Shown here piece after piece: positions 7,148 to 33,643 of a stretch of 64,000 nt of DNA. Origin of the DNA: Sipunculus nudus (taxonomy: Eukaryota; Annelida; Sipuncula; Golfingiida; Sipunculidae); the NCBI GenBank assembly GCA_026874595.1, contig CM049306.1, forward strand, positions 85,028,142 to 85,092,141, in the 5' to 3' direction. The number at the start of each line of letters is the position of its first letter. Position 1 is the stretch's first letter. The translations under genes and the position numbers were made by a program. The notes beneath the pieces were generated by a model, which was given only the letters and a program-made list of their open reading frames with translations, made no database searches and was not told where the DNA came from.

Positions 7148-7275
7148 CTTAAGTTGGTCTTATAGCCATTAGTATTATTTCACACTGAGGACTGCAATAG
7201 TGTTCCTCTACAAAATTATTGTTTCAATTATAACTTCTGTAACATTGCACAAAAATTATTCTTAGGTGGCATTTT

Positions 7276-10325: not shown

Positions 10326-11738
10326 TGAGCTTATTCAATGGTGTGGCTACTATTTCAGATTTGGCAACAGGCCAAAGGTCAGTCTGGATCTATTTATAGC
10401 TTTGGCAGACTACCCACTGCATCAGATTTGGCACCAAAGTTCAGCCTGGATCTCTTTATAGCTTTGGCAGATTGCCAACTGTGTCAGATTATGCAACAGG
10501 TCAAGAGTTCACTCAGTGCAGCCAGGTACAGGTCAAAAGTTCACTCAGTCTAGCCAGGTGCAGGTCATGAGTTCACTCAGTGCAGTACCCTGAGCTAGCA
10601 AATTTGTCACAGTTCACTTGGGGCAACTGCCTTTCTCACCTAAGCCTGGTCAGCCCCATGCATCAGACTCCAGGTAAGTTTGATGTATTGGCCTGATATT
10701 TTGACCTGTCTATGTGTCTTTGATGGCTTTCTCTTTCACAAGACAGGTGTTGCCACCTACAGAGACTTTTGCACAGTGTATGTGCCTGCTTATTTCTATA
10801 GAGGGTTTGATATATCAGTCTGAAATTGGGCATATGTATAATCTCTGATAGCTTCGTTGAATACAAGACTGGTGGTGCCAGCTACAATCATTTTTGTGTT
10901 GTGTGCACCCATGCCATAATTTCAGCAGTGATACATGAGAAGTAATGGTCCAGCATTGAAGCATTATACCTGGTGTATTTCCCAATGCACAGGTTTCCAT
11001 TAGGCCTGTAGGCCTTGTTAATTTATTGTTCATTTTATGGCATTTAGTGATGAATCTACTTAATTAACCAGATATATTTATTAATTAAGAAACTTAAGCC
11101 TTTCCTTGAACCCATGCTATCTTAAAAACCGTAGGAGCTAGCAGCTCCAAATTTTATGGAAGAATCAAGTTTTTTTGCAAATGTTAGTCATATGACTCAT
11201 ATTTAAAATTGAGGTTAATGTGGTGCCATCAAACCATTATGGGCAAAAAACTCATAATATTAGCCTCTATCGGCCACTCCACTGAAAATGTTTTATGATG
11301 AAATGATCAACAGAATTGTTTTCTTCTTTGCAAAGGTTATGCTACTGTAGGGGTCTCTCATTTGTATAAGAATAGATCTGGTTCATTGATTTTTTTAGTC
11401 ATAGAAAGATGCAGTTGATCTGAAGTGGCCAATTAAGCCTGTATCAGACTGAGGGGAAGCATTAGTCTTTTCTGCAAAACTCTTGTTTCAAATTCTGTAT
11501 CATAGTCAAGAATGACTTTTAGGTGGTTTTGTTCAAGTTTACTTAAATGATTTTTTGCTGAACTATTGGACCTTTGTCTAGTAGATTTATTGCATTAACA
11601 GACTGTAGGTATATAAGATAAGCAGAGCTGTATGGGCAACATAAATAATTGGTGTCCATATCCAAATTATGTGTAAGATAAATCCATGAATAAAATATAT
11701 CTGTATTCTGATTTCGCTTTCAATAGGCATTTGTTTTT

Positions 11739-13164
11739 GTATCCGCCAAAGTTTTGCGGATACTATGTTTTTGACCGGGTTCCACCGCCGCCTTTGCCAC
11801 CTCCGCCGTATTCGTTTCCGGAGAACTCCCCTGAGACTACTGGACTGATTTTTCCGAAACTTACACCAATTATCAGGTCACATGTGAACTGGTGCCTAAC
11901 CAATTGGCGTTGACCTCTGACCTTTCCTCTCTGCACAGCATCCATTTGTGCGTCTGTTTCCACACATAAACCCACATATCTTGGGAACCATTTGACCAAT
12001 CAGGAAAAAAATTTTTTACAAATGTTATAGCCCTTGAATAGCTTTATAACATACACAAAAAATGGTGGGACCTCCTGCAACCATGCTTGCACAGTGTACA
12101 TCTGTTCGTCTGCCTTGGGTTAAAATGACTCATATCTCTGCAGAGGTTTGACTAATTCACCTGAAATTTGGCATGCTTCTACGGCCTGGATAGCTTTCTT
12201 GATCTTATGACAAGTGGTGCCACCTACATTCATGTTCATGCTGCAGACATCCATGCTTATATCTTCGGACTGGTTTGACATATGTTCCTGAAAATTAGCT
12301 TGTGTATAGATCTCACATAGCTCTTTATCATACGCAAAACTGGTGGCACCACCACCTGCAACCATTTTTGCACAGCATCCGTCTTTTTGTCTGCTGTGGG
12401 ATAAAATCACTCATATCTCGGCAGTGGTTTGACATATCTGCCTAAAATTTTGCAGGTTTATTTATCCTGGACAGCTTTCTTGATTTTATGACAGGTTTCA
12501 CCACCTGCATTCTAGTTTACGCTGAAGACATCCAAGCTTATATCTCAGGAACCCTTTGACTGATTGGGCCAAACTTTTGCATGTGTATAGATCTCACATA
12601 GCTCTTTATCATAAGCAAAACTGGTGGCGCCACCTGCAACCATTTTTGCACAGTGTCTATCTGTTTGTCTGCCATGGGCTAAAATCACTTGTATCTCAGT
12701 AGTGTCTGCCTAAAATTTTGCATGTTTATACATCTTGGACAGCTTTCTCGATTTTTTTTTGGCAGGTGGCGCCACCTACATTTATGTTAACACTACAGAC
12801 ATTCAGGACTGATTGGACATATCCCCGTGAAATTATGCTTGTTTATAGATCTCACATAGCTCTTAATTATACACAAAATTGGTGGCACCACCTGCAACCA
12901 TTTTTGCACAAGTCCTGTTTGTTTGCTGTGGGATAAAATACTCATATAAATGTAGTGGTTTGGCTTATCTGCCTAAAATTTTGCATATGTATACAACTTG
13001 GACAGCTTTCTGGATTTTGTGGTAGGTGGGCAACCTACATACACATTTCGGCTGCAGACATCCATGCTAATATGCAACACACCTCACTCTATTTCCCCTT
13101 GCTACTCAATCCATTCCCCCCTCACCCGTTCCACTCTGATTTTGGCGGATACACAAGTTGCTTG
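11739..13164 (+). mobile_element. Hairpin-ended tandem-repeat element (family H), nested in B3
   Basis: The 5' end is a hairpin, GTATCCGC (11739-11746) facing GCGGATAC (11756-11763). The 3' end carries the complementary GGCGGATAC (13144-13152) and then CAAGTTGCTTG followed by TTG, the same CTTG/T terminus as families A and B. The core is an array of about 280-bp units. The empty site is visible in B4 around 43070-43090, although about 20 bases beyond 13164 remain unassigned to either H or B3. It has the same overall plan as family A but no sequence relation to its 5' end. Confidence 0.6.
12065..12960. repeat. About 280-bp tandem units of element H
   Basis: The landmark ACCATTTTTGCACAG (or its close variant) recurs at about 12081, 12361, 12639 and 12898, giving periods near 280, 278 and 259. 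Each unit also has TCTCACATAGCTCTTTATCAT and usually a GGTGGCGCCACC-type palindrome. Units are diverged by tens of substitutions. Confidence 0.85.
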
Positions 13165-13996
13165 TTGACTACCCATGTTCTAGTTATCCTAAACATTTTA
13201 ATAAAAAAGTTCTTATGAATATGTCAGCGAAAAAAAGCTATGTAGCCAAAGTCTTTCAGTTTGTGTAAAATGATATGCCAACAGGCTAAGGTCATGTCTG
13301 TGTCAATAAATAGCATGGCAGACTGCCAACTATTTCAGATTAGGCAACAGGTCAAGAGTTCAGTCAGTAAAGCCAAATGCAGGTCAAGAGTTCACTTAGT
13401 GCAGTAGCTGCAGCTGGCAATTCGTTTGGTTCACTCAGGTCAACTGCCTTACTCGGCTGAGCTTGGTCAGACCAGTGCACTTGGCTCGAGAGAAGTTTCA
13501 CTTAACTGCCTGATATTTTGGCATGTACATGCATCTTTGATGGCTTTCTCATAGACAAGGCTGATGGCACCACCTACAATGATTTTTTCACAGTGTATGC
13601 TCCAGCTTAATTTCCAAAAGTGATTTAACATATCAGCCTGAAACTATGGATGTTCTTACATCTCAGATAGTTTTGTTGTGTACAAGATTGTTGCACCACC
13701 TACAATTGCTTTGGGTTTCATGCATCTGTGCACATAACCCTAGAGTGTTTGAAGTATCTGCATGAAAATTTGCGTGTCCATATATCTTTGATGGCCTACA
13801 ATCATTGGTGTTGTGAACATCCATGCCTTTATTTCAGGAGTGACGTTTGGTGCTTTCATTCGGGATCAAAATATTTAGTACTTGCATTGTACATATACAT
13901 GTCACAAATGTACTTGAAAAGTAATGGTCCAGCATGTAAGCATTATACCTGATGTATATCCCATTGCACAAGTTCCCATTAGGCCTGTAGGCCTTG

Positions 13997-15220
13997 TTTT
14001 GTAATAGAAAATCTATATATTTCCCATATTTTAAATGGCCTTGCTGAATACAAAATAACTGGTGATTAATTTGTCATCAGTTGCTTTCAGTCATTCAAGC
14101 CATTATATAAGTATTAAAGCTTTAGTTTTGAAACCAGAAATAGATGACAATAAAGGAGGTATAGTGTTCTATAGTTAAACCAGAAAAACGTCATTTGAAC
14201 TTTTTAGTTAAATTAATGGATCTACTCTGTCATCATTTACTGTTTTGTTAAAGTCTTGACGAACATGAAGAACACAAAAACAGCTCTTTTATAAAAAATC
14301 TGATTAAAAATGGAGAGATCTCGTCAGTAACCTTTGTCTTGTATTTTGTGACATAAATTATCGATCAGCTGTTCACTTTCTTCTTCCCATTGTTTGGAAG
14401 GGAAAATGAAAGATGCAAGAAACCTTGTAAATAGATGGAGAAACAGGCCACCATCTGCACGGAGACAATATGCCAGTAACACTGAAACTGAGCAGATTTT
14501 CTGTAGCTAAAGATGAGCCAGAAAAAAAGAAGACGCCAATCACTTTGTGGCGGGACCGGATTTCTCTGATGCCTAAATGTCTGGTCCCAGCTGGAGGAGG
14601 AATATACTTGTTTCCCGAACCAGGGACTAAAAAGGTCTTCTGGAGCTCTATAATTGATTGGCTGGCATTCGCCTGCCCTCAAGACATGTGACACAGTTCC
14701 AGGTTGGCTTTACATCTGTAGCATGTAAATATTTATAGATATTACCCCAAACAAGTATACCCTGATTACTAAAAAAGAACACCTCCAGCCGCCGGTTTAT
14801 TTTAGCACCACACCTCTCAGTGACATCCTGCCTTTGGATTCGCCAGAATCCCCAACCAAACATTTCTCGCTTTGATTTTTTCCCTGCCACAACTTACAAT
14901 GTGATACCATCAGTAAAGTCAATAATAGAAATTGAACTTAGTTAATAGAATAACCCCAAGCATGTTATACCCTCCAGCAGGTGATTCAAGCCCCACTGTT
15001 CAGAACAACATACCATTCAGTGTTACCTATAGGACTTGGCTTGCTACTCTCACATTCTTACACTGTACATAGATCTTGTAACATAATGTTGACTGTGTAT
15101 GCTATCAAAACTGGTAGCTTACTAGCAGTCCTATCTAGGATGCAAAGTTTGATATTTGTGCCCACATTCAGTGTCTGTATCTGATTCTGTATTCACTTAT
15201 TCACTAAGATTTTGTGTATA
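13997..15220. other. Anonymous DNA with a GC-richer ORF stretch
   Basis: Most of this gap shows nothing. The stretch 14470-14691 is richer in GC than its surroundings and is open for 73 codons on the + strand (ATG to TGA), while the minus strand of 14365-14694 is open for 109 codons. I recognise no family in either. It could be an exon remnant or a conserved non-coding element. Confidence 0.3.
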
Positions 15221-17035
15221 AAGGCCTTGAAGGCCTTTTGCCTTTTTAGTTAACCTGTGAGCTTATGCCATGATGCAGCGCCTTCCGTCCACCATCATCC
15301 TTAAGTTGACAATGCTATCTTATTAACTGTCAGAGCTAGCATTTATTGAAGAATCAGTCACATGTCAAACTCTATTTGACTGAGCTTATTTTTTGGCTAT
15401 CTGCATTGACATAGATCATTTTATAAGGAAAAAGCTGAAAACCCTTAAAAATCTTCTTCTCCAAATCATCCAGCCAAATTGTTTCAATATTTCACAGAAA
15501 TAGTCCCAGAAACAATCTCTCTCAAGTTTGTTTGAATGGTTGTAGTTCGGTGATTTTTGGATGAGTTATGGGAAATCGAACTTAGTCATTTGGCCAAGAA
15601 AATTACTAACATAACAATCTCAAAAAACGACAGGAGATATCATCACCAAATTTTGTGCAAATGTTGGTCACATGACTCTTCTTTGAAGTTTAGGTTTTTG
15701 TGATGTCATCTACATTGACCTATGTTTAACAGGCAAAAACCTCATAATTTTAGCCCATTTAGCTTCTGTTTTAGAAATGTTTCATGATGAAACTGTCAAG
15801 CTGAATGGTATAATTTTTCACAAGAATTATTCCAGGGTAGGGTTCTCTCAAATTTATAAGAATAGATCATTTTTATTGATTTTTAGCTCAGCTGACTATA
15901 AGTCATCTGAGCTATAGTCGTGGTCCATTGTCCGTCGTCCGTCCGTCTGTCCGTCCGTCCGTCCGTCCGTAGATGTGGCACGTTTTGAAACCGTAAGACC
16001 TAGGAATCCAAAATTCGGCATAGTGTTAGATGTCCCCAAGATCTCCTACCAAGCCGAAAACTGGGTCTTTGCGACTTTGTTCCTTTGAGAAATTAAGGAA
16101 AAACCTCAATTTTTTATTAAAAACCTATTTTCACACTTCAGGGCTGCCTAATATCAAAACCACTTATCTGTTTTTCCTCATATTTACCATAAATATTCCT
16201 CTATATAGTTCCTATGTACATGCTTGAAATTATGTCTGTATTATATAATTTAAGAAAGTTATGGGCCAGAACAATGCATTTTGTAAAGCAAACTGTATTA
16301 TAATTAGGCAGCAGGTCAAGAGTTCAATCAGTGCAACCAGGTATAGGCCAAGAGTTCACTCAAGAGTGCAGTAGCTGCACCTGCAAATGAGTACTTGTTC
16401 ACTTTGGCGCAACTGCCTTCCTCATTTTAAGTTTGGTCATCAGAGTGCACCTTACTGAGAAGTTTAATGTATCAACCTGAAATTTTGGCCTGCCCATGCA
16501 TTTTGATGGCTTTCTCCTAAACAAGAATGGTAACACCACCTACAGTGATTTTTGCACAGTGTATGTCCCTGCTTATTTCTCAGAAGGGAATTGATATATC
16601 AGCCTAAAATTGTGGATTTCCATAAATCTCAAATAATTTTGTTGTATACAAGACTTTGGGTGACACCTAATATTGTTTTTAGGTTTCATGCATCTGTACA
16701 CATAGCTCATGAGTGGTTTGAAATATCTGCCTGAAATTTTGCATGTTCATACATCTTCGAGAGTTTCTCATACACAGGACTGGTGGTATCACCTACAATC
16801 ATTGTTTTTTCTAAACATGTCAGTTTTTTCAGGAGTGATGTTTGTGTAATTGGTGCTTGTACTCGGGTACAAAATATTTAGTACTTGCACTGTAGTTTGT
16901 ACATGTACATGTCACACGTGTACTTGAAAAGTAATCAAGTACTTTTCAAATAATGGTCAAGCTTGTTATTTGTGAAAGCATTATACCTGATGTATATCCC
17001 ATTGCACAGGTTCGCATTAGGCCTGTAGGCCTTGT
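15221..17035 (+). mobile_element. Repeat family B, copy B2 (complete ends, interrupted by A3)
   Basis: This copy shows both B ends: AAGGCCTTGAAGGCCTTTT at 15221 and AGGCCTGTAGGCCTTG at 17020-17035. The two ends are complementary over the AAGGCCT/AGGCCT blocks, and each is also locally palindromic. A truncated A element (A3) occupies 15884-16287, after which the B landmark AGGCAGCAGGTCAAGAGTTC resumes. Length without A3 is about 1.4 kb, so B copies differ strongly in internal content. No target duplication was evident. Confidence 0.62.
15884..16287 (+). mobile_element. Repeat family A, truncated copy A3 (nested in B2)
   Basis: It has the 5' hairpin, the (TCCG)n run (15931-15970) and the first 330 bases of the A core, closely matching A1. 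It stops at TTTTGTAAAG, where B2 sequence resumes, and the A 3' end is missing. A 65-codon open frame at 16030-16227 corresponds to the frames at 18151 and 40499. Confidence 0.72.
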
Positions 17036-17877: not shown

Positions 17878-18150
17878 TTGTATACTAGTGGTGGGCCAAT
17901 CATCAAGTTTTATCGAAAGTCAGTCGGTTTGCTGCCACTTTCAAGCGCTCGATTACCAATGGCAACTATCGATTACATCATAATATGATTGTTAGCTCAG
18001 CTGACTATAAGTCATCTGAGCTATAGTCGTGGTCCATTGTCCGTCGTCCGTCCGTCTGTCCGTCCGTCCGTCCGTCCGTCCGTCCGTCCGTAGATGTGGC
18101 ACGTTTTGAAACCGTAAGACCTAGGAATCCAAAATTCAGCATAATGTTAG

Positions 18151-18354
18151 ATGTCCCCAAGATCTCCTACCAAGCCGAAAACTGGGTCTCTGCGACTTCG
18201 TTCCTTTGAGAAATTAAGGAAAAACCTCAATTTTTTATTAAAATCCTATTTTCACACTTCAGGACTGCCTAATATCAAAACCACTCATCTGTTTTTCCTC
18301 ATATTTACCATAAATATTCTTCTATATAGTTCCTATGTACATGCCAGAAATTAA
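18151..18354 (+). other. Short repeat-family ORF of A1 (67 codons)
   Basis: The open frame starts at the ATG in AGATGTCCCCAAG, and an equivalent frame exists in A3 (16030-16227) and A2 (40499-40702) with few amino-acid changes. In A0 the start is mutated. The product would be basic and short, with no recognised motif. Preservation in three copies may only reflect recent common origin. I do not claim it is translated. Confidence 0.3.
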
Positions 18355-19055
18355 GTCTGTTAGGTATAAATTCTTTAAGTTATGGGCCCAAACATAATGG
18401 ACTTTGTAAAAAATCAGGAAAAATATTTACTCACTTAACATGAAAAATTTTGAAACTAGAGTCTGTTTTCCCAAGTATATAACTATGTTTAATTAAGATT
18501 CAATTGTTTACCCAAAATTAGATCTGAATTTTGTAAATTTTTTAAGTAATTAGCATAAAAATAAAATCAGGACCTTAAATTTTGCCCAACTTTGACCATG
18601 GCACGTTTTTTTCCTGTAAGCACCATTGATTTAATTTTCACAGCATGTGAACATAAATATTTAATTAGTTTAAATCTGATATTTGGAAGTAAAAGCTTGA
18701 AAATTAAGCTAGTTATTGATTTTTTTCTTGAGGCTCTATTGTAGTCATTTGCTTTGTTTACAGATTACAGATGCAGGGTCCCACTCCAGATCACTGGAAG
18801 TCAGCTATACCAGAGTTTCTGATTTGTTACAGTCACTGGGGGAGATCCCCTGCTGTGACAGGTGTACAGTTATTCTCATATCACCACCCCAATGACCCCC
18901 CCCCCCCCCTGCAAACACAACCCACCAAGTGTTATGCAGTATTGTTATTGTTTTCACTGTATCTCCTTAATTGTAATGCTGCTTCCACTCTGATATGCAA
19001 AAACTTTCCTTGAAAAAGTAATTCAAGGTGTAATCCAGAAGATGCAATGTTGTGT

Positions 19056-19070
19056 AATGTAGCATTTTTA
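19056..19070. repeat. Left target-site duplication of the LINE
   Basis: AATGTAGCATTTTTA here is repeated at 31981-31993 (TGTAGCATTTTTA, with the two leading A merged into the poly(A) tail). Length 13-15 bp, typical of target-primed reverse transcription. Confidence 0.88.
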
Positions 19071-22000
19071 TATATATTACCGGTACCTAGAGACTAATTG
19101 AATAAGGTACACAAGATAACAGATAATTAACACTAAAATGAGAGGTAATGTGGATACGTTTTATACACTTGGCAATACAAAGATTCATTAATGAGTTTTT
19201 AACAACAGAATTTGATTTTCATTGTAACTTATGTAAATACATATTTAAAGATTGAAGGTTAAAAGCCGACTTGCTAGACAGAGTTGAAGGCATTCTAGTG
19301 AGAAATCAAAATTAATTTTTTAAAGGTTATACTTGCAATCATAATTATCAGAGATCTTAAGTCTGTTCCACTACAAATTGAGACAGTAATAATATGTTAC
19401 TTATGTCATTGTTTGATATATAGACCTGGAATTTGCATAGATTTCTGTATATTTTTAATATTGTTGAATATATATGTAGATACCAGTAGTCTGCATATTG
19501 TAGTAATTCAAATAATTAATAACCACAAATCCTTATGGACAGTGAATGTAATTTTTAAACATAAAAAATGTATATATACTGCATAAGGTTACTATCTTTT
19601 TCTCTGCTTATTTCACTGCACTAAATGGTATTTTACAGATATTATATAAAAAAGGGCTCACAATTACCATATGTATTCACTTATGTTCATATCATATAAT
19701 ACCATTGGTAGAATGCTTGGCAAAACTTTCCAGTACAACTCTGGATATACTTCAAATTGGTGGTTTTAAACCTTTCTTTAGAAGAACAAGAGTATGGTAA
19801 TTTTTATCCAGTACAAAGAAGGTACCTGTGTAATGTTTGTTCTTTTTGCCACATCATACAAAGGGATTTACATAATACATTTATAAATAGTAATCATATT
19901 TAAGCCACTTGCTCTGGCATTCAGTTTAGAGGGCCAATCAGAATTGTTACAGAATCAATTAATATATATCAGCAACATTTTCCAGTCTCTGTTTACCTGA
20001 AGAAATATGAAATTAAGAATAGCATCTGGATCTTACTCTTTTCCTAATTTTACATCAAAACGGTTATAGAAACTGTCAATGAAGATGCTGGTAAACTTTT
20101 TTTATTTAAAGTAGGTAAACATACTAATTATGTAAGAACAGCTTAATTTTTGCTGAGCCAAATTTTATTAATAGAGAGATAGATACATGTATCCAATCCC
20201 TAAGAATTGAAAAGTATTTTTCCTCATGGAGATGATTGTGCTATATATACATTTATGCTAATTTTGAGATAAATCTGAGATGGATTTAAATGGATTTTTT
20301 TACAAATGAATTTAGATACACAACCATCTTTGGTATCAAGTAAGGGATATTGAATTTGTATGCCTTTTTTATGCATGGTATGTTAAAATTATTGTTAATA
20401 TTAGATGAGACAATATAATATCAGATGATATGTTAAAATTAGATGAGAATGCTTAGCTTCTCTTTCAATAATTTCCACGATTATACTATATAATATTGTA
20501 TTAGAGATTCTGGTCAACCTTGAACCTTTATGTATGTACGTATATATATGTTTAAATATTGCGTATATAGTTTTATGTATCCCAGTTATATACTATAGTG
20601 CATTACAGTTAAAATTATAATTCATAGCTCAATTTACACTCAACTTTACAAAATACCCCCCCCCCCCCCAAAAAAAAAAAATTAGAAATAATATTTAATA
20701 AATTGATAACCTGTATCAATACCATAATGATATACCATATTACAAATCTACAACTTGTGATTCAGCTTAGTGCACTGTAGTGGAACAACATATCAGAATT
20801 ATTAATATATGTATTTTAGTCTAAGCTTTACGATAAGATTACTATTCAGGATAAGGAGTTACAGTTTCAACAGGTTGAGACAATTTATCTAAGACTAAGC
20901 TTTTTTTTCTTTTTTTTTATTATTTCTGGAGATAAGTCTCATGCTGTAAGTTACAATACAAACATGATAATTATGGAATATTATTATTCGTACTGGGCAA
21001 ATGATGCAAACATTTTATAAAAGCACCTAAAAAGAGTGTAAACATAAATATTTACTTATAAATTACTTTATATACACCCATAGTGTACCCATAGTCAGTT
21101 CTACTGTTAATTTTAGTGTTACAGTGAAAATTTTATAGGGATCTGACAGATCTTTACAAAAATCATCATATCTTTTTACCAACAGTTTTTCTTGCCTAGG
21201 TATGATTGTGGGTGTAGTAAACTGATTCCTAGTGGGGTTGGAGGACACCAAGCTACTTTGTGAGGCCATCATTATAACTAAATCGGAACGTGAAAAAATT
21301 TAATGAAAATCCATGCACATAATGAAAGCAGAAGTCATTAGACTTCGGTGGCACTGAGATGCCTCACCAAATATCTGATTGATTTTCATGCAAGTTATAA
21401 ACGTTAACCAATATAGTTTCTGAATAAAATTCTCAGAATGTTTGTATATTTAATTAGGTCAGAGGAAACTAGGCTACTTCTAGGGCCTGTTTATCTTGTA
21501 ATATCACAGTAATAATTTACTTGATTTGATAGAACTTCACAAATTCCATAACCTTTCACCAACAGATTATCATGCCCAAGTCAACTATTGGCAAAAAATA
21601 TATACACAATTAATGAGGCCAGAGGTGTAATTGCAATAAATTATCTGGAATACTGTAGACCTTAGTGAAACTCAACTCTAATTGAACCAATATAACACCT
21701 TCCCTTAAATCCATGTTCATTTAATGAGGTCAGAGGTCAACAGAATTTGATGGCACCATGATGATGCCAAAATATGGTAGATTTATTCTATTTAACTCAT
21801 AAATATGTATTAATACAAATTTCACTTGATCTAAAGTCTCAACAAAATGCATGTACCGATATATTAATTAGGTTAGAGGTCACAAGACACGACATATTAT
21901 GCATCTTAATAGGACTGCTGCATAGATTAGGTTTGTTCATATAATCTGCCATATAGGATAGAATATATTTTTTTATAACTTAAAATTTTGTTAGATTACC

Positions 22001-22306
22001 TTGTTTACTGTAGAAAGTAAGTTTTTTTTTAACTACTATACACATAATAAAGAGCTCCGCTGATAAGTAGTCAGCATTTGATAGGTATTCTTTCTGTTGC
22101 AAGATGCATCAGAACTTACTACACATCATAACTTGGAAGCATGTTATCGCGTCACATATCTGTTATCTAAGTGACTTAGTAACTTTTGTTATTTACTGTA
22201 TGTTTGTCATAGCTATTATATGTAATGTGGGTACATTAATGACCAAAATTGCATTAATATATATCTTTAAATCTTTTGTCAAAAAAATAATTAACATAGT
22301 ACATAT
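19071..22306 (+). other. Upstream part of the LINE, no ORF1 seen
   Basis: This is AT-rich DNA between the left target duplication and the ORF2 start. No open frame longer than about 75 codons occurs, and none has an ORF1-like coiled coil or RRM. It contains a C12/A11 homopolymer stretch (20656-20681) and a degenerate tandem block near its 3' end. It may be a 5' UTR with promoter function, or it may include undetected older insertions. Confidence 0.45.
21440..21900. repeat. Degenerate tandem units ahead of LINE ORF2
   Basis: The motif TTAATKAGGYCAGAGG recurs at about 21452, 21607, 21720 and 21865 in a similar AT-rich context, with spacing of 110-155 bases. Units are strongly diverged. L1 elements of some animals carry promoter monomers in this position; that role here is inference. 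Confidence 0.5.
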
Positions 22307-23244
22307 ATGTCTAATACTTGTCAGATAGTATCATTGAATGCCAGAGGACTGGCCAGTTATTCTAAAAGAAGAGAAGTTTTTCATTGGTTAAACAAGAAAG
22401 AATGTCATATTATATTTTTACAAGAGACTCATAGTACTTCAAAATGTGAAAATAAATGGAAATCAGAATGGGGACATCAAATATATTTTAGCCATGGCAC
22501 TAACCAAGCAAGAGGGGTATGTACATTAATTAAAAACAAAACTGCCTTAGAGATAAAAGCTGTAAGAGGGGATAATCATGGGAGATATTTAATTATTAAT
22601 ACAATAATAGGTCAACATGAGATCTCCTTTGTTAACATATATGCACCAAATAAGGATGAACCCTGCTTCTTTGAGGAACTTATTAATGTTATCAGCACCA
22701 ATTGTACAGGCAGCTTAATAATAGGTGGAGATTTTAATTTAACTCTTAATCCAAACTTAGATAAAAAGGGCGGGCATTCTAAAAGTCACATGAAATCTAG
22801 ACAAGTGATAAGCCATTGGATAGAATTAGAACAGTTATCTGATATCTGGAGATTACAACATCCCAATCATTTAGAATATACATGGCATAGATATCTTCCT
22901 AAACCAGTATTTTGCAGACTTGACTTCTTTCTAATTAGTGATAGCCTAATAAGTTGTATAAACCAATCTGATATTGAAGCTGGGTATAAAAGTGACCACT
23001 CTTTGATTAAAATAAATATGGCAATAACAGAACATAAGAATGGACCAGGTTTCTGGAAATTGAATTGTTCATTATTAAAGGATCAAAGTTATATCTCCAA
23101 AATAAAAGAGTGTATAAAAGACACTATTAACAATAATAAAGGAACAAATCCATCATTAATGTGGGATACTTTAAAATGTCAGATAAGAGGAGAAACAATA
23201 GCATACGCAGCCTACAAGAAAAAAGTACAAACACAACAGATTAA
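22307..23244 (+). pseudogene. LINE ORF2, endonuclease half (interrupted by D)
   Basis: This encodes the N-terminal exonuclease-endonuclease-phosphatase fold endonuclease that nicks target DNA for LINE integration. In about 312 residues one sees the metal-site Asn in LNARGL (N11), the catalytic Glu in LQET (E40), IYAPN (111-115), GGDFN (D142, N144), the substrate-loop CRLDFFL (203-209), and the C-terminal SDH (229-231) that carries the catalytic His. All expected catalytic residues are present. The ATG at 22307 is kept because the family's usual start lies a few residues before the LNARG motif. The frame runs into insertion D at the TTAA at 23241, after which 27 unrelated residues precede a stop at 23321-23323. 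Downstream ORF2 resumes at 28817. Confidence 0.92.
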
Positions 23245-23440
23245 CCCTTTACTGTTCAGATTAGCCTGTGGATTGTCACACTCCTACTGTTCAGATTTAT
23301 TTTGCATTTTTTCCACATTTTGACATGAATCTATATAAGAGACATTTACTCAGTAACCGTTAAAGGTATCTTTGTGAAATTTTCAGCTTTTACTGTCAGG
23401 TATATGTCCTTCATGTTATTTTATTTATTTTCTACATACC

Positions 23441-24890
23441 TGGTTTGATATGTATGTAACTAAGGTATATACAGGTAAAAACAGGTAAATCTGTACTACC
23501 TGTATTTCCACTCACTGGTATATCACCAAAATGACCCCTTTCATCCTGTTCAGGTAACCCATGAACCATTTGATAAAAAAAGGGAAATGTAAGGATTTTT
23601 TTTTCACTCTAAGGTAATTATATATTAAAGGTAAGAAAAAGGTAAATGATTTGGTTTAACACTGGAAAGGGAACCACCGACGAACCAGAATGTGCTAGTA
23701 AAATTGGATTTTTCTGTGGGAATCATATATTTTTCACCTGAAAAGCTTGCTGACCAAAAGAGCACATTCTATGACTATTGACATATAACACATATGTTTA
23801 CCTGTACAGGTAAGTAAAGGTAAATTATTTTTTTTTCTGAATATGTACGCAAACACCTTGTTCATCAATATAGTTACTATAAATTAATACCTTCTCTATT
23901 TATGGACTGTATAATTCATTTTGATATAAGAACAGGTGCTTTTAATACAGTAATTAAGTTACCTATGTGAATAGTACCTTTGTTCTTCAACTGATCTAAT
24001 TACCTGTGGCAGTGACAAAATCATGCTGAAAAGTGGCTGAGAAGAATATGGATAAACAAGTGTCAACTGTGTAAAACCATTATATTTTGATTTTTCAGAC
24101 ATGTAAAACATAAATTGATAATTTTGGTTACGGTTACACATAAAAAACATACTCACCTGTACAGGTGAGTTCAGGTAAATACAGGTAAATTATTTTTTTA
24201 ATGAAGTATATATTTTATACATGTAATAAGGGAGAAAAAAAACATACAACTTAATTTTGAGTGCCATGTGTAAAATTTATGAATTATAGGTACTAACTGC
24301 ACTATTTATTGGGTTACCTGAAATGATACCTTTGATCTTAAACAGATTTAATTACCTTTGTAAGTACAGAATATAAAGACAACTTTTTATTTTAAAAGTG
24401 GAGAGGAAATTTTTGAAGGAGTTAAAACAATATGCAGAAACTATCTTTTAATTAACTGCACAGCCACGAGACTTGTGGATTTCAATTTTGCCAATTTCTA
24501 CCTGTAAAAGTTTACTCACCTGCACAGGTAAGATCAGGTAAATAAAGGTAAATTCTCATTTTTTTAATTTAAATTATATATTATACTTGTTATAAGGGAC
24601 ATTGCAATAAAAACTATTTACTTTTGTCCAATGTGCAAAATATATAATTTATGGGTGTGAAATGCACTAATTATCTGGTTACCTGTAATATACCTTTTTA
24701 TGTCAAATTAATATATTTTTACATGTGCAGGCAAAAACAAATCGCCGACTGATTTTAAAATAAAATCTGGAAAAATGTGTCTACCCTGTTTGTTAACATT
24801 TCATGCAATAATAAAATTGCTGTTTAGTTGGTCTGTCGCGTTTAACTGCACTTGTAAAAATCCAGGTGCGACAGGTAAACAGGTGTGCAC
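23441..24890. repeat. About 360-bp tandem array inside D
   Basis: Units start at ACCTGNACAGGTRAG-type sites at about 23800, 24155 and 24518, with weaker copies before (about 23441) and after (about 24840). Periods are about 355-363. Units share GGTTACCT...GTACCTTT...TTAATTACCT blocks and ACAGGTAAAT repeats. Two units carry the perfect palindrome ACCTGTACAGGT. Confidence 0.82.
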
Positions 24891-27800
24891 TTGGTTCGAT
24901 CAACGATTAGCCTAAATAAACGTTGATATATCCAAATCTTTCCCATTCGAAACAGTGCGAATGTACTAAAATTTGAAATAAAAAATCAAAACAAATATGT
25001 CTTGCACTTGTGAAAACTCTTATTTTCTTAATTGAGGGTGTCCATGCAATTTCTTTTGAAGTAACCGCCCCTCCGCGGCTGACGGTGATTGAGCGATAAT
25101 GAGTGAATTTAGCAATATGTAGCACACAAGGTACATTAACGAGGCGGTTTTGCAGACTTTAGTCACAGAATTATCCTATCTAGTCAATATAACGAAAAAA
25201 TAAAAATAAATAAAACATTTACTGGACAATTAAGATGCAAGACGACACGTCTGTTTGGGTTTTTTTCCTGAACGGTCCAATTTTACCGCGTCATCCCTCA
25301 GCCAGCGGTGACGCACTGACGCTGCAAACTTTTCTCACCCAATCGTATCTACTTTTACATCAGCAAGGTTCACGTGACTGGGTCTGGCGTGTTTATTTTG
25401 TAAAGTCTTTTAAATGGACATGGTTCACGTGACTGAGTCTGGCGTGTTTATTATAAGAAGCATCATGAGATGCTGTGCCGACTGGCGGTCTGATTATTCT
25501 TTTTTTTTTGTGGGGGTGGTTGGGGGGGGGGGGGTGGGGGAGTTACCTGGAAACATCCTCTCACGTCATGCAATATGTATGCATTAGAATCGATTATTTC
25601 CCGCAGGGATCAGAAACAATGAAAACACTGGTAGTACTAGTGGAACAATAATTTATTAAATATATATAATAAATAGGCCTATGCACATTAATGTAAACAA
25701 ATCGTTATTAACAAGAATATAAAATAACGGAAAATCAATATTTTTTATTGTTGAAAAGGTGTTTTTAAAATGTGCTATTGGGGATAATGCACATAATACC
25801 AAAGTTTATAAACGTGAGAAAACGATACTAAACTGTGAAGTAACACCAAAGAAACATGTTTTCACAGTACATTTTAATGTATGTTAAGTTATTCAAATAT
25901 ATAGGCCTACGTAAGTCCAACAATGCTTATCAAAATCATGCCTAGTTACTATGATTTCATAGCAGTACATTCTGGTATCTTAGAGGAAAATTGCACGTAG
26001 GCTTACATATCTTCATGCACTTACTTATCCAGGTCTTCAATTTGCACTTTATTTCAGTGACATTTAAATGAAGCATAATTACGTCATATGAAATTAATAT
26101 AAAATGGAAATATAATATATAATTACATTTATTTAATTCAACTTCACTTGAAGAAAAGTAGGAAATTTATTTTATAATTTTGAGATGCACAATTCCTTGG
26201 TTAACTAGATGTATACACGAGACCTAACTTCAAATCATATAGCTAATCTGGTAACCTCCGTATGCAACTTTGTACATTTAGGCCCTCATATAGTCAGAAA
26301 TCATGCACTGCTGATAAAACTTCAGCTTTAGCAGGAAAGCATGCGGTCTCCCCAGGCTGCAAGGTGCATGGTGATTTCACGGAGAGGCAGAGTTCCAGTT
26401 AATTATAAAACAATATGCAGCAACAATTCAATAATTCTTAAGAAGCACCTGGAATGTTCCAAAAACTTCTAATAAGTTATGATCTCTTGGGTGTTTGTTT
26501 ATTTATTTATTTTGTATTCACCAGTCCCGTCAGCTGTAGAGACGCGGACCATGACCTACACCTGGCAATTATACATGTCGTTCGGTTCCCGAACATTGTA
26601 AATGATGTCATTATCCTTTGATGATTAATGTAATTGATGCCAATTTAAATTAGTAATTTTCACTCCGAATCCCCGTCTGGTTGGCCACATGTTGTGTGCT
26701 GTCTTTCCGCTAAAATCTTCTGTGTGATAGGAAAATTTCCTTGTGCTAATAAAACTGTCAATCAAACGTGAAAATGACAAGGTCGGTGGGTAAAAATAGA
26801 AGCCGACACCCTGTGGTATTTTAGGTCTTCGAAAGGGGCAAGTTTGAGACAAAGCCATCAAACATTTTGCAATATAAATATATTTGTATACCTGCGTCTT
26901 TTAAATCTTATTTTACAGCAATGGAAAGGTACAATTAGATTTCAGTCTAATTTGTCCACCTGCATGATTTCTCGATCGTCATTTTGAATACACCATGCGC
27001 ATGCATATCGAAAGTCCGCATCTTTGGTCTTAATATTTTACTTTCACTGTGTCACCGTCACTATATATATACGCTATAGCTTCTAATTTAAGATTGGCGA
27101 ATGCATTTTATTCATTTTCTTGCATGTATCATGACTGAGACTGACTCCGCCGTATGACTTTAAAGGATTATCATGACCACGACACATTTTCCATATTTAA
27201 TCCCTGGGCCATGCATGCAAGCGTTGACTGGGTTTTGAGAGCGATATCAATATAAAGCGGCGTTTATACCGGGTGCACGTACGGTATATGCGATGTATAT
27301 GCAGTCTGCGGTATACGTTATGTATTTTTTATGAATTTAGGCGGCGAATGAACCCGATTTGAGAAACTTTCATGGATGAAATATAAAAAGGAGTTATAAG
27401 TTCTGGTATTAGTGATCAGATTTTATGTTTAAAAGGTACAAACATTTATAACGCAGTACTATTCCTTACAACAATGAATAGCCTGTTATAGGCAAACGTA
27501 TTACAAAAAAAAAATAATTTACTTCAATTCATATAATAATAGGTTATATTTTTAAAATTTAGTTTGCTATGTGCCATATATATTTAAAGATGTTTTGCAG
27601 CTCCGCCCAAAATCTGTTTCACTGGCAGTGACAACTACTGGTGCTTTTATCAATCACTAATGAAAATTATAATACGCACATAGGCCTATATATACACACA
27701 CACACACACACAAAAGCGCGCACACGTGCACGTGCACATGTAGCCTATACATATAAAGGAAGTACTACACATATAAAAATTTGTAAAATCTGTTCAGTAT

Positions 27801-28730
27801 GTGTTAAAACCGTATTAATACATATTTGTTCAAGCGTATAAGTCACTTACTGTCTTGTTTTACATATTCAAGGATCTGGGTGTATAGGCGTACAGTTCCA
27901 CGTACGTCGTAAAATAATTACTTCAATATTTCATGGAGTATAAAGTTATCTTTATATTTTACACTGGAAAATTAACTATATCTCTATAATATCTGGCTGT
28001 TTCTAATTTAAGACGGTATTAATTTTATTTTCAATCCAAAAAGCCTCTTAGAATGATTGACAGTTCTTGTGCCCGATTACGATTGTACATAAAATGTTTG
28101 GCACAGAAATGATCACTAGTAAACAATCAGACATCACATATATATACGACATGATATATGACAGTATCTTCGATTTTTAGTTAAGAAAATATGTTAATAT
28201 TTAAAATAAATACTCATTTTATTATATGATATCGGTTAAAAATGGTTTTCCAGTGCCAGTACATGACACAGTAAGGAGGTCACGCAGATCACGTGCGTGG
28301 TGTCTTGTCAGACGCGTCAGTCAGTCGGACGGCGATCATTGGTCACAAGTTAAACCAATAAAAAAGGGGATAATATATGATCTTGGAAATGTTTAACGGA
28401 AGTTAAATCTGTAAACACACTGCACTTGATTTTGTCACCAGGATTGATTGCCAACATTTGGTAATTTACCGATTCCTGATGAATTTAGCGTAGGAGTCTG
28501 ATTTTACTCTCGCAGCCGACATGTTACCAGGGCCCACGTAACAAGGCCACGTGAGTGAAAGTCAATCATTTTTATATTTTTCCAACAAGTCTGCGTTCGC
28601 GCCAGTTTGGATCTTGGTCACATGTTAGAACAACACTTGACGTTTTTCTCTTTCATTTAAGTACAAATATGATGGATGACAATAGACATTTCACCCCCAA
28701 AACTTGCCCCAATTACGGGTATGTAAAATG
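24891..28730. other. Interior of insertion D, no gene recognised
   Basis: This stretch is less repetitive and richer in CpG than the flanking LINE. It includes a direct repeat GGTTCACGTGACTG-RGTCTGGCGTG (about 25368 and 25423), a G-rich tract (25522-25540), a CA-run leading into CGCACACGTGCACGTG (27694-27730) and several CACGTG E-boxes (for example 25373, 25428, 28554). It could be host DNA carried by the element. No ORF above 80 codons occurs. Confidence 0.4.
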
Positions 28731-28816
28731 GGCTTTAGCGCGCCCGGGCGGGCGCCTTTGAACTACAGGCCCGTGACAAACGCGCGCCCTGGCGGGCGTT
28801 ATTGGAGTTTAAAGCC
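28731..28816. repeat. GC-rich hairpin terminus of D
   Basis: Two blocks, GCGCGCCCGGGCGGGCGCC (28738-28756) and CGCGCGCCCTGGCGGGCGTT (28781-28800), are each near-palindromic. They lie inside outer arms GGCTTTA (28731-28737) and TAAAGCC (28810-28816). The last 86 bases can therefore fold into a strong stem. GC content here is far above the surroundings. Confidence 0.75.
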
Positions 28817-31651
28817 TTAAACATTCAGAAAGGTTAATTCATCAACTACAGACTATATATAACACAACAGGTGATACTAAAGATAAAGAAAATTGGGAAG
28901 TAGCAGTTAATAACCATAAAGAGTTTGTTGAAGAGAAAACAAGAGGAGCAATTATAAGATGTAGAACCACATGGTATACAGAGGGGGACAAACCGACTAA
29001 ATATTTTCTTAACTTAGAAAAAAGAAATTTTAATCGAAAATCGATAATAAAACTCAAAGATAAACAAGGTAGAATAATAATAGAACCCAAAGAGATATTA
29101 AATGAGGAACTACAATTTTATACAAATTTATATACAGCACAAGCCAAGTCTGATAATGTTAATAGGGATTTCTTTTTACTAGAAAATAATAAAATGCTCA
29201 ATGAAGAGGAAAGGACTTTGTGTGAAGAAGAATTTAAAATTGAAGAATTTAAAAACACTATTGATTCAATGGCCCTTAATAAGACTCCAGGCCCAGATGG
29301 GTTCCCAGTAGAATTTTATAAAACATTTTGGTCTGATTTAAAAGAATATTTTATAAATGCTATAAGTAACTCATATAATAAAGGCTGCCTTCCACTCACT
29401 ATGCGTCAAGGGATAATGTCTCATTCCTAAGAGAGGCAAGGACCAACTTCTTTTGAAAAACTGGCGCCCCCTTTCTCTTCTTAATACCGATTATAAAATA
29501 TTAGCAAAAACTTTAGCCAATAAACTTAAAATAGTCTTACCTTCAATAATACATTCAGATCAAACTGGTTTCATGAAAAATCGATATATCGGAGAAAATA
29601 TAATAACAATTATAAGCATTATCTCTCATTTAAAAAATAAAAAGATAGGAGGTTACCTGTTATCAGTTGATTTTGAAAAAGCATTTGATCAGTTAGAATG
29701 GCCTTATATTCAAGATGTTCTTCAAGCATTTAATTTTGGACCAATCCTTCGAAATTGGATTAAGATATTATATCATAATATTTTTAGCTGTGTTCTGAAC
29801 AGAGGATGGGCCACTGATTTCTTCTCAGTAACAAGAGGTGTTAGACAGGGATGTCCCCTATCACCATACTTATTCATATTGGCAGCAGAAATACTAGCAA
29901 ATGAAATAAGGAATAACTGTAAAATAAAAGGAGTAATAGTTGATCAGAAGGAACACAAAATTATTCAGTATGCAGATGACACTGTTTTAACTCTTACAGG
30001 AGGACCAATGTCAATCAAAGAAGTCTTGAATGTATTTAAAAGGTTTCAACAAATATCAGGTCTTAAAGTTAACTTAGAAAAAACAACAATAATGCCGATA
30101 ACAAACTATTTTTATAATCAGGCACAATTGAAAGACTTAGGTCTGTGTTGGTGTACTAATCCAGTTAAAATTTTAGGAATCTCAATTCATCCGGAATGGA
30201 AAAAAATGATAGAAACTAACTATAAAGAAATCCTTAGTAAAATTAAAACTATTATAAATATCTGGAGACACAGAATTATGTCCTTGTCTGGAAGGATAAC
30301 CATTGTGAAAACATGTATTATTTCACAACTCATATATTTATTCCTTGTACTTCCTAAGCCATCACAAGCTTATATTAAAGAAGTGGAAAGATTAATATTT
30401 AAATTTATATGGAATAACCAACCAGATAAGGTTAAGAGAAACACTTTAATAGCACCGAGAGATAAAGGAGGGTTAAATATGATTAATCTCCAAGCTAAGT
30501 TACAATCCTTAAAAATCTCATGGGTTAAACGTTTTCTTATTGGCTCTACTGAAAATGGTTGGAGACAGATTATTAATGTACAATTAAAAAATCTAGGTAC
30601 ATATATATTTAAATGTAACTTAAGAGTGAACGACTTAAAAGATTTGAATGTCTCTTGTGATCCATTCTGGAAAGAAGTACTCCAATCCTGGTGCAATTAC
30701 AATTACACTAAGACGGTTTCTATAAATGAAATTCAGTCACAAACTTTGTGGTTTAACTCTCACATAAAAATAAATAACACAGTAATATTTTATAATAAAT
30801 TATATAAGGCAGGGGTCAAAACAGTTTCAGACATTACTAAAAATGTGGGAAACAATGTAACATTTCTGAGCTTTGAAGAATTAATAAGCAGATACAAAGT
30901 TACTATTAACTTTATGCACTACACAGGATTGCTGCATGCAATCCCAGGAACTTGGAAAAAAGATATAAAGAATAACTCAAAGGTCCAACTGCAAGAATAT
31001 GGGGTTGAAAAAATTTTAAGAATGAAAAATACTTCACGTTTCATCTACAGTGATTTAATAAATAACCTCTATATTTTGCCAGTCAAATCAATGGAAAAGT
31101 GGACCAGAGAGTTAGAATTACAAAACAATGAAATCATACTTAAAGCCTTCAAAAATATAACTAGTATTACCATTTCTGAGAAGCTAAGAACCTTTCAGTT
31201 TAAACTATTACATAGGATTCTACCTTTGAATCCCTTCCTCTATAAATTGAAAAAAAGTGACACAGAATTGTGCACATTTTGCAATAAAGATAGAGAGACA
31301 TATTCTCATATATTTTATCACTGTGAAATAACATACAGCTTAATATCTGATTTAAAAAAATGGTTGAGAAACATAGGCTTAGATATACACATGAGCAATT
31401 TCAGAAAAACCTTTATAATTATGAACACTACCAACGACACCCTTCTAGATATTTTAATACTACTCTTTAAACATTTCGTATACACATGTAAGTGTAAAGA
31501 AAAAATTCCTACGTTCTGTATATATACAAACTACGTATTACAGATCTATAAAATAGAAGAAAATATAGCTAGAGCAAAAGGTAAAATAGTAATACATGAC
31601 CAGAAATGGAAACAACTTAAAAATAAATATTTTAAAGAAAACCATTGCTGA
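28817..31651 (+). pseudogene. LINE ORF2, reverse-transcriptase half (one frameshift)
   Basis: This encodes the reverse transcriptase that copies LINE RNA at the nicked target. The first part (28817-29430) includes a TEGDKPTKYFLNLE linker and KTPGPDGFP. A 2-nt deletion in a CTCT run near 29418-29421 shifts the frame to a stop at 29428. The second part (29453-31651, about 732 codons) continues with NWRPLSLLN, the catalytic block VDFEKAFD (about residue 72), GVRQGCPLSPYLF (about 127), the active-site YADD (173-176, DNA at 29969), and a C-terminal CCHC finger C-x2-C-x8-H-x4-C at about residue 607. Stop TGA at 31649. Catalytic motifs are intact; insertion D and the deletion make the copy defective. 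Confidence 0.92.
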
Positions 31652-31901
31652 AATAATACCTATCTTAAAGCAAAAACAAAAAATATTTACCATGATTATT
31701 TCAATATGTTTATAATGTACCCTGTCTGTATTTGTTGTTTATGTACATCCGGTTAGTGTGTATCAACCTTAGTGTGAATGTATACATGTATGCATGTTTT
31801 TGTTTTATGTAAATTGTATGATGATGTAAAATCATGTGTACTGTCTGTTACTGTATCTGTATTTTATGTTCAATTAATAAAAAAAAAAAAAAAAAAAAAA
31901 A
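31652..31901 (+). terminator. LINE 3' UTR, AATAAA and first poly(A)
   Basis: About 220 bases follow the stop codon, then AATAAA at 31876-31881 runs directly into an A tract up to 31901. This is the expected end of the LINE transcript. Confidence 0.75.
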
Positions 31902-31980
31902 GAGAAATCAGGCCGAGTCCATCTCGAGTCCAGTTTGAAAAGAAAAACCACATTCTAAAAAAAAAAAAAAAAAAAAAAAA
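31902..31980 (+). other. Extra 3' segment with second poly(A) (candidate 3' transduction)
   Basis: A 55-base non-A segment (31902-31956) containing CCGAGTCC and TCGAGTCC follows the first A tract. A second pure A tract (31957-31980) directly abuts the right target duplication. A LINE that reads through its own signal and copies downstream DNA leaves this arrangement. No clear AATAAA precedes the second tract, which weakens the reading. Confidence 0.5.
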
Positions 31981-32532
31981 TGTAGCATTTTTAAAGAAAT
32001 CATTTTTCTTTTAAATGATTTTACCAATCATAATGGAACCCATCAGTATGCTTAAATTATGATAAAATATGAAGCACATTATGGATAAATAAAGACACAA
32101 TTAAAAATTGTGAAATCTAAATTCAAGTATTTTTTTTAGATATTTATTGTTTTGCAGATTTAAAAGATATATTTTTGTGGTAAAAAATAAATAAACATTT
32201 TATATGCATGATGTGGTGTTATCTGACAAGATTGAGATTTATGATGATGCAATTGAGAATTATGAATCAACTTTTATATTCAGATATATATGTTATATTG
32301 AAAATGTATAGAAATATAAACTTAAATTAAAAAAAAAATTGATGTGATAAAAAAATGAGGATTTATTACAAACATTTGTTCATTATTTTCCTGCATCAGC
32401 AGAATTTGAGATCAGGCTTTGTTTGCCATGTTTTATGTTGTTAATTAGTTATATTTCAACTGTATACATTTCATAAAAAAAACATATATTTAATAATATA
32501 TATTATACAAAAAAAAAGATTCGATTGAACAA

Positions 32533-32778
32533 ATGTGTAAACTACTGAAATGTCAACAGTTAATTGAAAAGCCAACTAATGGTCATGGTAACTGTACAGA
32601 TCATTTGTTCACAAACTGCTCACATGCTTCAGTTTCAACATTAGGAAACACATGGTCAGGTCACAAAATATTATTTGCAACAATTTCTTGCTCATCAATA
32701 CAAACCAATCATATAAACCAACCATGGCCTTTATTACCTCTTCCTCTTACACTTTATCTCCATTTGATATTATTTTAG
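32533..32778 (+). pseudogene. 81-codon ORF of A1, possible LINE endonuclease relic
   Basis: An ATG-to-TAG frame of 81 codons, with the same start, stop and length in A2 (41947-42192) and about 8 amino-acid differences. The pattern QQLIEKPTN..., then TDHLFTNC, then LGNTWSGHKILF resembles the C-terminal part of Jockey/CR1-type endonucleases (PTR...LDLIFTN...SDH). The Asp of the SDH motif is replaced by Gly and the upstream domain is absent, so it would be inactive. It lies 55 bases before the 3' end of element A. The resemblance is by eye; it could be coincidental. Confidence 0.35.
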
Positions 32779-32832
32779 ATTTTTACCTTCAAGGTTAACT
32801 TCAGCTGAGCACAGTGACCCATAGGTCCCTTG

Positions 32833-33635
32833 TTTTCTTTCCAAAATGCCTTTTAGTTGTAGGCAAAAATGATTCTTCCATTTTTTACCACATTCCGGGC
32901 TTCGTATAATGAGTCCTTGTTCCCAAATAACTTCCATATGTAACCGAGTATGACACAGTAGATGCGAGAATGTAGGACTTATTAAACTTATTATCTGTGA
33001 ACTCGCAGGGAGCTGCAGAATTGGCGAAGAGTTTTCTAACGAGATGTACATTGTACAAATATGGGCGGGAAGGCGTTAAATACTCCATAAATTCTCCAGG
33101 TCTATGCCAATTTTAATAGATTCTCTTAGAAATAATCTATTCAACCGATGCCAGGCATCGCCGGTTAGGCAGTCCTTCAAAAAATTCTTTGTTGGGGCTT
33201 ACACGGCCGGTCGAGTATTTGGATTTCAGCTGGAATTTTTTTCGGACAAGTCTGCAATTGTTTTTTGTGGTATGATCTGCCCCAGTCACACCTGGGCCTG
33301 TAAATTTGCCTTCATGTGCTAGAAAAACAACCCCTTCTATAGGCCTAACATTCTTAGATGCTCTTAATTTCCATAATGAAAGATATTACCCGATGTTGCC
33401 GATCGTTTAATGTGATCCTTAAAATTAGTCTGATTGTGTCTATATACGTGGAAGATCATTACACTCGTGCGCGAGAGGGGAATACCTGCCGGGGAAACGC
33501 AGGTACTGTTTCACAGATAATTGCATAATTCTTTGATAATTGCCTATATTTGTCTGAACCGATTAATAATCGATCATCAGTCGGTTTGCTCAAACCGATT
33601 ATCGATTATGAAAAAGGAACCGACTCCCACCACTA
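32833..33635. other. Right arm of element C
   Basis: This is C's own DNA between the end of A1 and the right terminal repeat. It has a hairpin-forming CGATGCCAGGCATCG at about 33146 and a CCGATTATCGATTAT block near the end. Open frames of 60-90 codons occur on both strands, none recognised. Confidence 0.5.
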
Positions 33636-33643
33636 TTGTATAC

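Follow-up and report, generated by a model that had tools for sequence, protein, structure and literature searches.

A nest of four transposons in Sipunculus nudus supports an order of successive insertion

Introduction

Elements of the hAT kind and piggyBac-like TTAA elements both move by cut-and-paste, and hAT TIRs follow a consensus of the (C/T)AGNG kind. MITEs of the hAT type are about 900 bp long, with short TIRs, 8-bp duplications that vary between copies and no 150-aa ORF. Elements of the piggyBac type duplicate TTAA, and their empty sites have a single TTAA. LINEs of the L1/Tx1 superfamily combine an APE-type endonuclease, reverse transcriptase and zf-RVT with poly(A), target-site duplications (TSDs) and 5' truncation. 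For DINE-1/HINE elements, the features described include subTIRs of 11-13 bp, a 5' inverted repeat overlapping the subTIR, a tetranucleotide microsatellite, a 3' palindrome, and insertion in T-runs with flanking Ts (PMC4067079, PMC7492417). Several oyster HINEs have GTCY, GTCC or GTCK microsatellites (PMC7492417). In the TinT chronology, the order of activity is taken from which element contains which, using counts over many nests (PMC3014933).

Here we describe four transposons, each inside the previous one, at positions 17878-33643 of a 64,000-nucleotide window from Sipunculus nudus (measured from 8-bp duplication to 8-bp duplication). All four kinds are already known. Unlike TinT, we use one nest and its empty sites. 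The window lies within a 1.43-Gb genome assembly, which supplied comparison copies for every layer. Hence, each layer can be compared with copies that the next element has not entered.

Results

The four-layer nest is real. Its boundaries are listed in Table 1. A preliminary description of this DNA had layer C closed by an 8-bp duplication and 10-bp terminal repeats, a LINE closed by a 13-15-bp duplication with poly(A), and layer D closed by TTAA on both sides. All three closures are present. The 8-bp duplication is perfect, and the LINE TSD is 13 bp beside poly(A), or 15 bp counting two poly(A) letters. Scans of the window for Rfam families and for tRNAs (the latter with the bacterial genetic code) each gave 0 matches.

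Table 1. Positions of the nested layers and their parts in the window
Feature	Position	Strand	Remark
C left target-site duplication TTGTATAC	17878-17885	.	direct repeat
C left part, putative hAT-like MITE	17886-17993	+	TIR TAGTGGTGGG at 17886-17895
A1 left part, HINE by structure	17994-19070	+	subTIR, 5' inverted repeat, microsatellite
A1 left subTIR GCTCAGCTGA	17995-18004	+	exact inverted match, 10 bp
A1 5' inverted repeat CTGAGCT	18016-18022	+	5' end fold
A1 (GTCC)n microsatellite	18039-18091	+	TRF
LINE TSD, left copy TGTAGCATTTTTA	19058-19070	+	direct repeat
LINE left part: ORF1-ORF2 spacer (truncated), followed by the endonuclease of ORF2 (22307-23240)	19071-23240	+	
D, candidate non-autonomous TTAA (piggyBac-like) element	23241-28816	+	first TTAA = 23241-23244
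Second TTAA closing D	28817-28820	.	duplicated target
LINE right part: remaining ORF2, with reverse transcriptase and zf-RVT, and 3' end	28821-31878	+	
First LINE poly(A), 23 A	31879-31901	+	
55-nt foreign segment (transduced or template-jumped)	31902-31956	+	54/55 identical to C5:76,698,563 onwards
Second poly(A), 24 A	31957-31980	+	adjoins TSD
LINE TSD, right copy TGTAGCATTTTTA	31981-31993	+	direct repeat
A1 right part	31994-32832	+	subTIR, 3' palindrome
A1 right subTIR TCAGCTGAGC	32801-32810	+	exact inverted match, 10 bp
A1 3' palindrome GACCcataGGTC	32816-32827	+	4-bp stem in fold
C right part	32833-33635	+	inverted TIR at 33626-33635
C right target-site duplication TTGTATAC	33636-33643	.	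direct repeat

The outermost layer, C, is about 909 bp (a corrected length, without the inserted layers) and has no ORF of at least 150 aa. Its 10-bp TIR is perfect and fits the hAT consensus; each terminal 10-mer occurs once in the window. The final TT of the left part could be C's or A's. Duplications were scored at the aligned ends of all 29 C copies examined; an initial terminal pattern had fitted only 15 of them. There are 23 perfect 8-bp duplications, three with one mismatch, and three with three or four (L015, L027 and L037), where no clear duplication is seen. The 8-bp pattern is shared by other C copies, with letters that differ between them. These features, all in common with hAT MITEs, suggest that C is a hAT-like MITE. 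Two of the 23 perfect duplications are ATATATAT, which could be trivial.

Every C copy examined is without A (29/29). The C landing site is itself uninterrupted at two places, L112 and L113. Alignment across the joined flanks scored 189 for L112, compared with 87 and 106 for the halves, and 169 for L113, compared with 68 and 102. With 100 shuffled left flanks, the best scores for the two were 42 and 41. The empty C site sought in the preliminary description is thus found as contiguous flanks; however, these places are diverged paralogs, not an allele of this locus. A third match, L114, covers the right flank only and yielded no C-free site.

Within C lies A1, about 1.9 kb long. Its start, previously placed at 18080, is corrected to about 17994, and its end is 32832. 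By its structure, A1 is a non-autonomous Helentron (HINE), sharing each of the DINE-1/HINE features listed above; its exact subTIR is 10 bp, as against the 11-13 bp given in those sources. Folding of the 5' end gives -21.7 kcal/mol (RNA parameters, native sequence alone). In the two insertions read, the targets are T-rich, with flanking Ts and no defined TSD. Four T in C became two plus four, and five T in a C5 LINE became five plus two, a net two extra T in each case. As proposed, both parts of A1 are collinear with A2, an uninterrupted copy in the window. Positions 18125-19070 align to 40473-41406 at 92.1%, and 31979-32836 to 41392-42250 at 94.6%. In all seven A copies examined, the LINE is absent and A1's two parts are contiguous (97.5-98.9%). 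On these seven copies, A is rejected as a LINE-bearing family, naturally carrying the LINE at this point.

Apart from the two copies in Table 1, the LINE TSD occurs only once in the window, in uninterrupted A2 at 41394. In sequence, the LINE is an L1-superfamily element. A profile search of ORF2 found PF03372 (5.2e-12) and PF00078 (9.6e-41), and the best PDB match is human LINE-1 ORF2p (2.2e-58, versus 2.8e-15 for R2). The ORF2 frame shifts between 29417 and 29430. The LINE here is 5'-truncated, and 5' ends vary among copies (L109 gave no 5' end of the C9 LINE). TSDs of 13-14 bp are present in the window LINE and in the C1, C3, C5 and C6 copies. All these traits are shared with L1/Tx1-superfamily LINEs. 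The ORF1-ORF2 spacer, about 4.5 to 5.1 kb in two full-length copies read, differs from L1/Tx1 type members, among which we know of no such distance. Tx1 affiliation is a lead only, from what PMC10294476 describes.

As anticipated, D-free LINE copies exist in the same genome: all eight examined lack D, each with a single TTAA at the D site. When the D flanks (300 bp each) are joined, one frame stays open. Closure of D at TTTAAA, at about 28810, instead of the TTAA at 28817, is rejected because 8/8 empty sites read AATTAAACATTCAG.

D is 5.58 kb long, and its left end is TTAACCCTTT. The left end lies at TTAA in 10/10 cases examined. Two copies were read from end to end, and each is bounded by TTAA on both sides; right ends are known from L094 and L095 only. 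L095 is 99.3% identical across 5.58 kb; the L094 right end, read inwards, is GCCTTTAA. There is no ORF of more than 91 aa in D, and it probably lacks a transposase of its own. In the genome, 101 matches to PF13843 were found, ten of them stop-free in open frames of 575-684 aa. The nearest is 12.9 kb from any of the 94 D ends listed on C1-C5 (of 281 D 5' ends in all), so no transposase partner is linked to D by position. Duplicated TTAA, and single TTAA in empty sites, suggest a non-autonomous piggyBac-like TTAA element. Unlike piggyBac-type elements, D lacks a long ORF, and inside the TTAA its ends match weakly, with only CTTTA near the tip in common.

Among the copies and sites examined, nothing contradicts nesting. 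The order first proposed (C, A1, LINE, D) is supported by uninterrupted landing sites for all four, those of A1, the LINE and D lying in copies without the next layer. Divergence was measured for the window copy against majority letters, and since the comparison copies are the closest matches, low values are favoured: 39/794 letters differ for C (4.9%), 6/964 and 5/835 for A1 (0.6%), and 2/394 for the LINE (0.5%). By this measure, C is old, and A1 and the LINE are recent. A1 and the LINE are too close in divergence to be ordered by it; their order comes from containment alone.

We conclude that four successive insertions at one locus are very probably the best explanation, together with the enzymes that we infer for each step and a LINE tail most likely from 3' transduction. 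In step 1, a hAT transposase acting in trans would insert C, duplicating TTGTATAC. Much later, rolling-circle transposition would place A in a T-run of C. The L1-superfamily LINE would then enter A via target-primed reverse transcription, being 5'-truncated and generating the 13-bp duplication. Finally, D would insert into LINE ORF2.

An assembly artefact, or chance matching, is highly improbable. Repeats at 98-99% identity can mislead assembly, and the layout comes from the assembly alone; against this, the junctions agree with independently defined element ends and with mechanism-specific duplications. Still less credible is a stack moved or amplified as a composite unit, its layers recording no separate events here: co-mobilisation is possible in principle, all four families being repeated (3,176 A 3' ends, 281 D 5' ends, 2,350 first-look C candidates and 142 first-look LINE candidates), but the copies without the next layer (29/29, 7/7 and 8/8) reject it, no other such unit is present among the copies examined, and the flank of 557 bp to the right of C is unmatched elsewhere save at three weak, short places.

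Two features of the LINE tail were absent from the preliminary description: another poly(A), and a segment of 55 nt. The distinctive 32 nt of this segment occur at two places in 1.43 Gb when up to 3 mismatches are allowed (none for the reversed control), one being C5:76.7 Mb. Its first 30 nt are a dispersed repeat (760 places, up to 3 mismatches). The segment is missing from all six sister LINE copies that could be read (L080 and L090 gave no usable LINE 3' end). No LINE was found in the 1.5 kb read upstream of C5:76,698,563. There, the junction between CTCGCC and GAGAAATC is without the A/T letters that adjoin five LINE insertion points read at both ends.

Most likely, LINE RNA would have carried the 55 nt past its own poly(A) by 3' transduction, the source LINE being one that the assembly does not contain. 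The tail may then be an address label: the source LINE stood, or in other individuals stands, at C5:76,698,563, and is missing from the assembled haplotype. We offer this tentatively, at somewhat under an even chance. The lack of a LINE at that place, and of A/T letters at its junction, weakens the transduction reading. Both observations, and the six segment-free sisters, favour a template jump, in which reverse transcription of a short C5:76.7 Mb transcript, begun at its poly(A), switched to LINE RNA at the poly(A) end. If so, no source LINE was ever at that place. This is possible, if doubtful; a segment that stops exactly where the second of two poly(A) tracts begins is also the classical structure of transduction. 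It is unlikely that double-strand break repair inserted a 55-nt genomic fragment into one long poly(A) after integration. While the dispersed repeat in the segment would fit such filler, the tail is split into similar tracts (23 and 24), as by two polyadenylation events, and filler predicts no particular place in the tail.

Discussion

The stack offers a clean case of transposon stratigraphy: for each layer, the same genome also has an uninterrupted counterpart. The nest was first described as four different mechanisms forming a relative clock. Four superfamilies are indeed present; however, hAT and piggyBac-like elements share cut-and-paste, so there are three mechanistic classes. Similarly, the clock holds at this locus but not for the families. 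At other loci of the genome, the same families are nested in reverse order; hence, the stack dates one locus. This exposes a limit of nesting clocks.

The tail provides a candidate source locus for a young LINE. If the address-label reading is true, a young L1-superfamily LINE outside the well-studied vertebrates would show 3' transduction, with source loci that are polymorphic and can be traced. It would also amplify with passengers: a TA-flanked MITE of about 540 bp sits within the unusually long ORF1-ORF2 spacer.

Uninterrupted copies bear out the order of insertion

The nest is real and its insertion order, C then A1, LINE and D, is right. Nesting of this kind is a known phenomenon; this example is unusually complete. 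Since the whole genome was searchable (1.43 Gb, 153 contigs, with the window at C1:85,028,142-85,092,141), the test proposed in the preliminary description, a search for each layer in uninterrupted form, was possible. Copies without the next layer were found for C, A and the LINE, as detailed below.

Positions in the window of the nested layers and related repeats
Feature	Position	Details
C duplication	17878-17885 and 33636-33643	TTGTATAC
A1	17994-19070 + 31994-32832	
LINE poly(A) tracts	31879-31901 and 31957-31980	55 nt between
Further A-family stretches	7271-8716, 15877-16287, 40473-42250	last is A2
Diverged collinear repeat family	9983-13999, 16304-17035, 42244-43969	flanks nest on both sides
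Tandem array	54113-55563	~340-bp units; related to surroundings of the L007 A copy

C, a hAT-like MITE, had been described as closed by an 8-bp duplication and 10-bp terminal repeats. Both were confirmed (TTGTATAC and TAGTGGTGGG), and the 10-mer occurs once per orientation in the window. A query with 32840-33635 gave 2,350 candidate matches; 40 were scored and, of the best 39 beyond the window's own copy, 29 were fetched. In 29/29, C is unbroken by A: its two parts adjoin, typically at ...ATGATTGTTTT/CTTTCC... Hence, C is an element of ~909 bp. Most of these copies show an 8-bp duplication: at the aligned ends, 23 are perfect (two of them ATATATAT), three have one mismatch and three have three or four. 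Elsewhere in the genome, the 557 bp right of C has only three weak, short matches (L112, L113 and L114). L114 covers only the right side of the C flanks. The other two align with the joined flanks, without C, and each has a single diverged target; these diverged paralogs are the two places that the search for an empty C site produced.

By its structure A1 is a HINE, a non-autonomous Helentron: subterminal inverted repeats of 10 bp, an overlapping 5' inverted repeat, a (GTCC)n microsatellite, a 3' palindrome and T-run targeting. The same features are given for HINEs in passages of two papers (PMC4067079, PMC7492417), with GTCC-type tracts for several of those in the Pacific oyster (PMC7492417). 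Across the whole genome, the A1 3' end matches 3,176 places at ≤1 mismatch, and the reversed control none. The two parts of A1 are contiguous in all seven close copies fetched from 39 other scored matches (97.5-98.9% identity). None of the seven carries the LINE at this point, an arrangement that the preliminary description had named as one that would count against it. A2 is a more distant relative (92-95%, in a match that excludes the left end).

The LINE and its tail

ORF2 of the LINE encodes endonuclease and reverse transcriptase; among solved structures, human LINE-1 ORF2p is the closest. D splits this frame, which is further disrupted where the reading frame changes, between 29417 and 29430. 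A 13-bp duplication, TGTAGCATTTTTA, closes the element, within the 13-15 bp of the preliminary description. The window LINE is a 5'-truncated copy, because four of eight sister stretches (L079, L081, L083, L089) reach further 5' than position 19072. In L087 the start lies later, and in L085, L091 and L093 no 5' end was seen. Two full-length copies, on contigs C6 and C5, have duplications AAGTTGAAAAAATC and (A)CATGACATTGTT, respectively. Both start at GACTTCCGG with ORF1 open. Calculated from match positions, the distance from ORF1 to ORF2 is about 4.5 kb in C6 and about 5.1 kb in C5.

The ORF1-ORF2 spacer of C5 and C3 copies holds a ~540-bp TA-flanked MITE (TAGTCC...GGACTA; L104 1760-2258, L105), which the C6 copy (L111) lacks. 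This MITE is a passenger amplified along with the LINE. For a sister-family LINE at C1:26.6 Mb, 4 kb upstream of ORF2 were read; they include A-family sequence and hold no other forward frame of at least 100 aa.

The tail, with its 55-nt segment between poly(A) tracts, is the part of the nest worth following. The first 30 nt of the segment belong to a dispersed repeat, with 760 places at ≤3 mismatches; among 30 places that were fetched, a poly(A) tract precedes just one, the copy in the window. A 32-nt pattern for the rest has two genome places at ≤3 mismatches, the window and C5:76,698,586 (one mismatch). The full segment is matched at 54/55 by C5:76,698,563, where DNA continues on both sides without poly(A), and no LINE was found there in the 2 kb read. 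Two of the eight sister stretches have no LINE 3' end; in the six readable, the segment is absent. The classical reading is 3' transduction, with a source LINE that this haplotype lacks. Against this reading, the C5 junction, CTCGCC/GAGAAATC, has no flanking A/T letters; such letters flank the five other insertion points for which both ends were read. In the main rival explanation, the segment would come from a short C5 transcript by template jumping.

D is a TTAA element

The D-free LINE copies sought in this genome were found: 8/8 fetched, from 39 other scored matches, read AACACAACAAATTAAACATTCAG with one TTAA. The left end of D has 281 places genome-wide at ≤1 mismatch (control 0). Note that copies were retrieved with a query omitting TTAA. 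TTAA precedes 10/10 left ends fetched from 39 other scored matches, in different surroundings. D had been described as closed by TTAA on both sides. TTAA also stands at both ends of the two copies for which the full sequence was read (L095, 99.3% identical to D over its length; L094, 91-94%). D is piggyBac-like in its TTAA targeting and in its CCCTTT end, but the match between its two ends is weak. No ORF >91 aa was found in D. The genome has 101 piggyBac transposase family matches, ten in stop-free frames of 575-684 aa, and none was linked to D as a partner. Across 24641-28816, D has a CpG observed/expected ratio above 0.6 in 19 of the 21 bins of 200 bp, compared with 0/7 bins in its left end.

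Limits of the divergence clock

The preliminary description took the nest as a relative clock. Judged by sequence divergence, C is several-fold older than the remaining layers, because the window copy departs from family majority letters at 39/794 positions for C, versus 6/964 and 5/835 for A1 and 2/394 for the LINE, where comparison with closest matches biases the A and LINE values low. Even so, divergence between the C of the window and the 29 other C copies, also closest matches, is 7.8-11.6%. Divergence cannot separate A1 from the LINE; their order rests on containment.

The clock holds for order at this locus and gives no family ages. Nesting among these families runs both ways, and the window order carries nothing on their ages. 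A C5 LINE (C5:64.315 Mb; L106, L104) holds its own HINE near the 5' end, the reverse of the window nesting. This HINE is 93.8% identical to A1 over the first 1.6 kb and has junctions GGTATTTTT/AGCTCAG...CCCTTG/TTAAGCG; the C6 LINE reads uninterrupted GGTATTTTTAAGCG at the same point. In L017 a diverged A-family copy has a C copy at its end, marked by the 8-bp duplication GCTCAGAT. In L092, a LINE 3' end adjoins A-family sequence.
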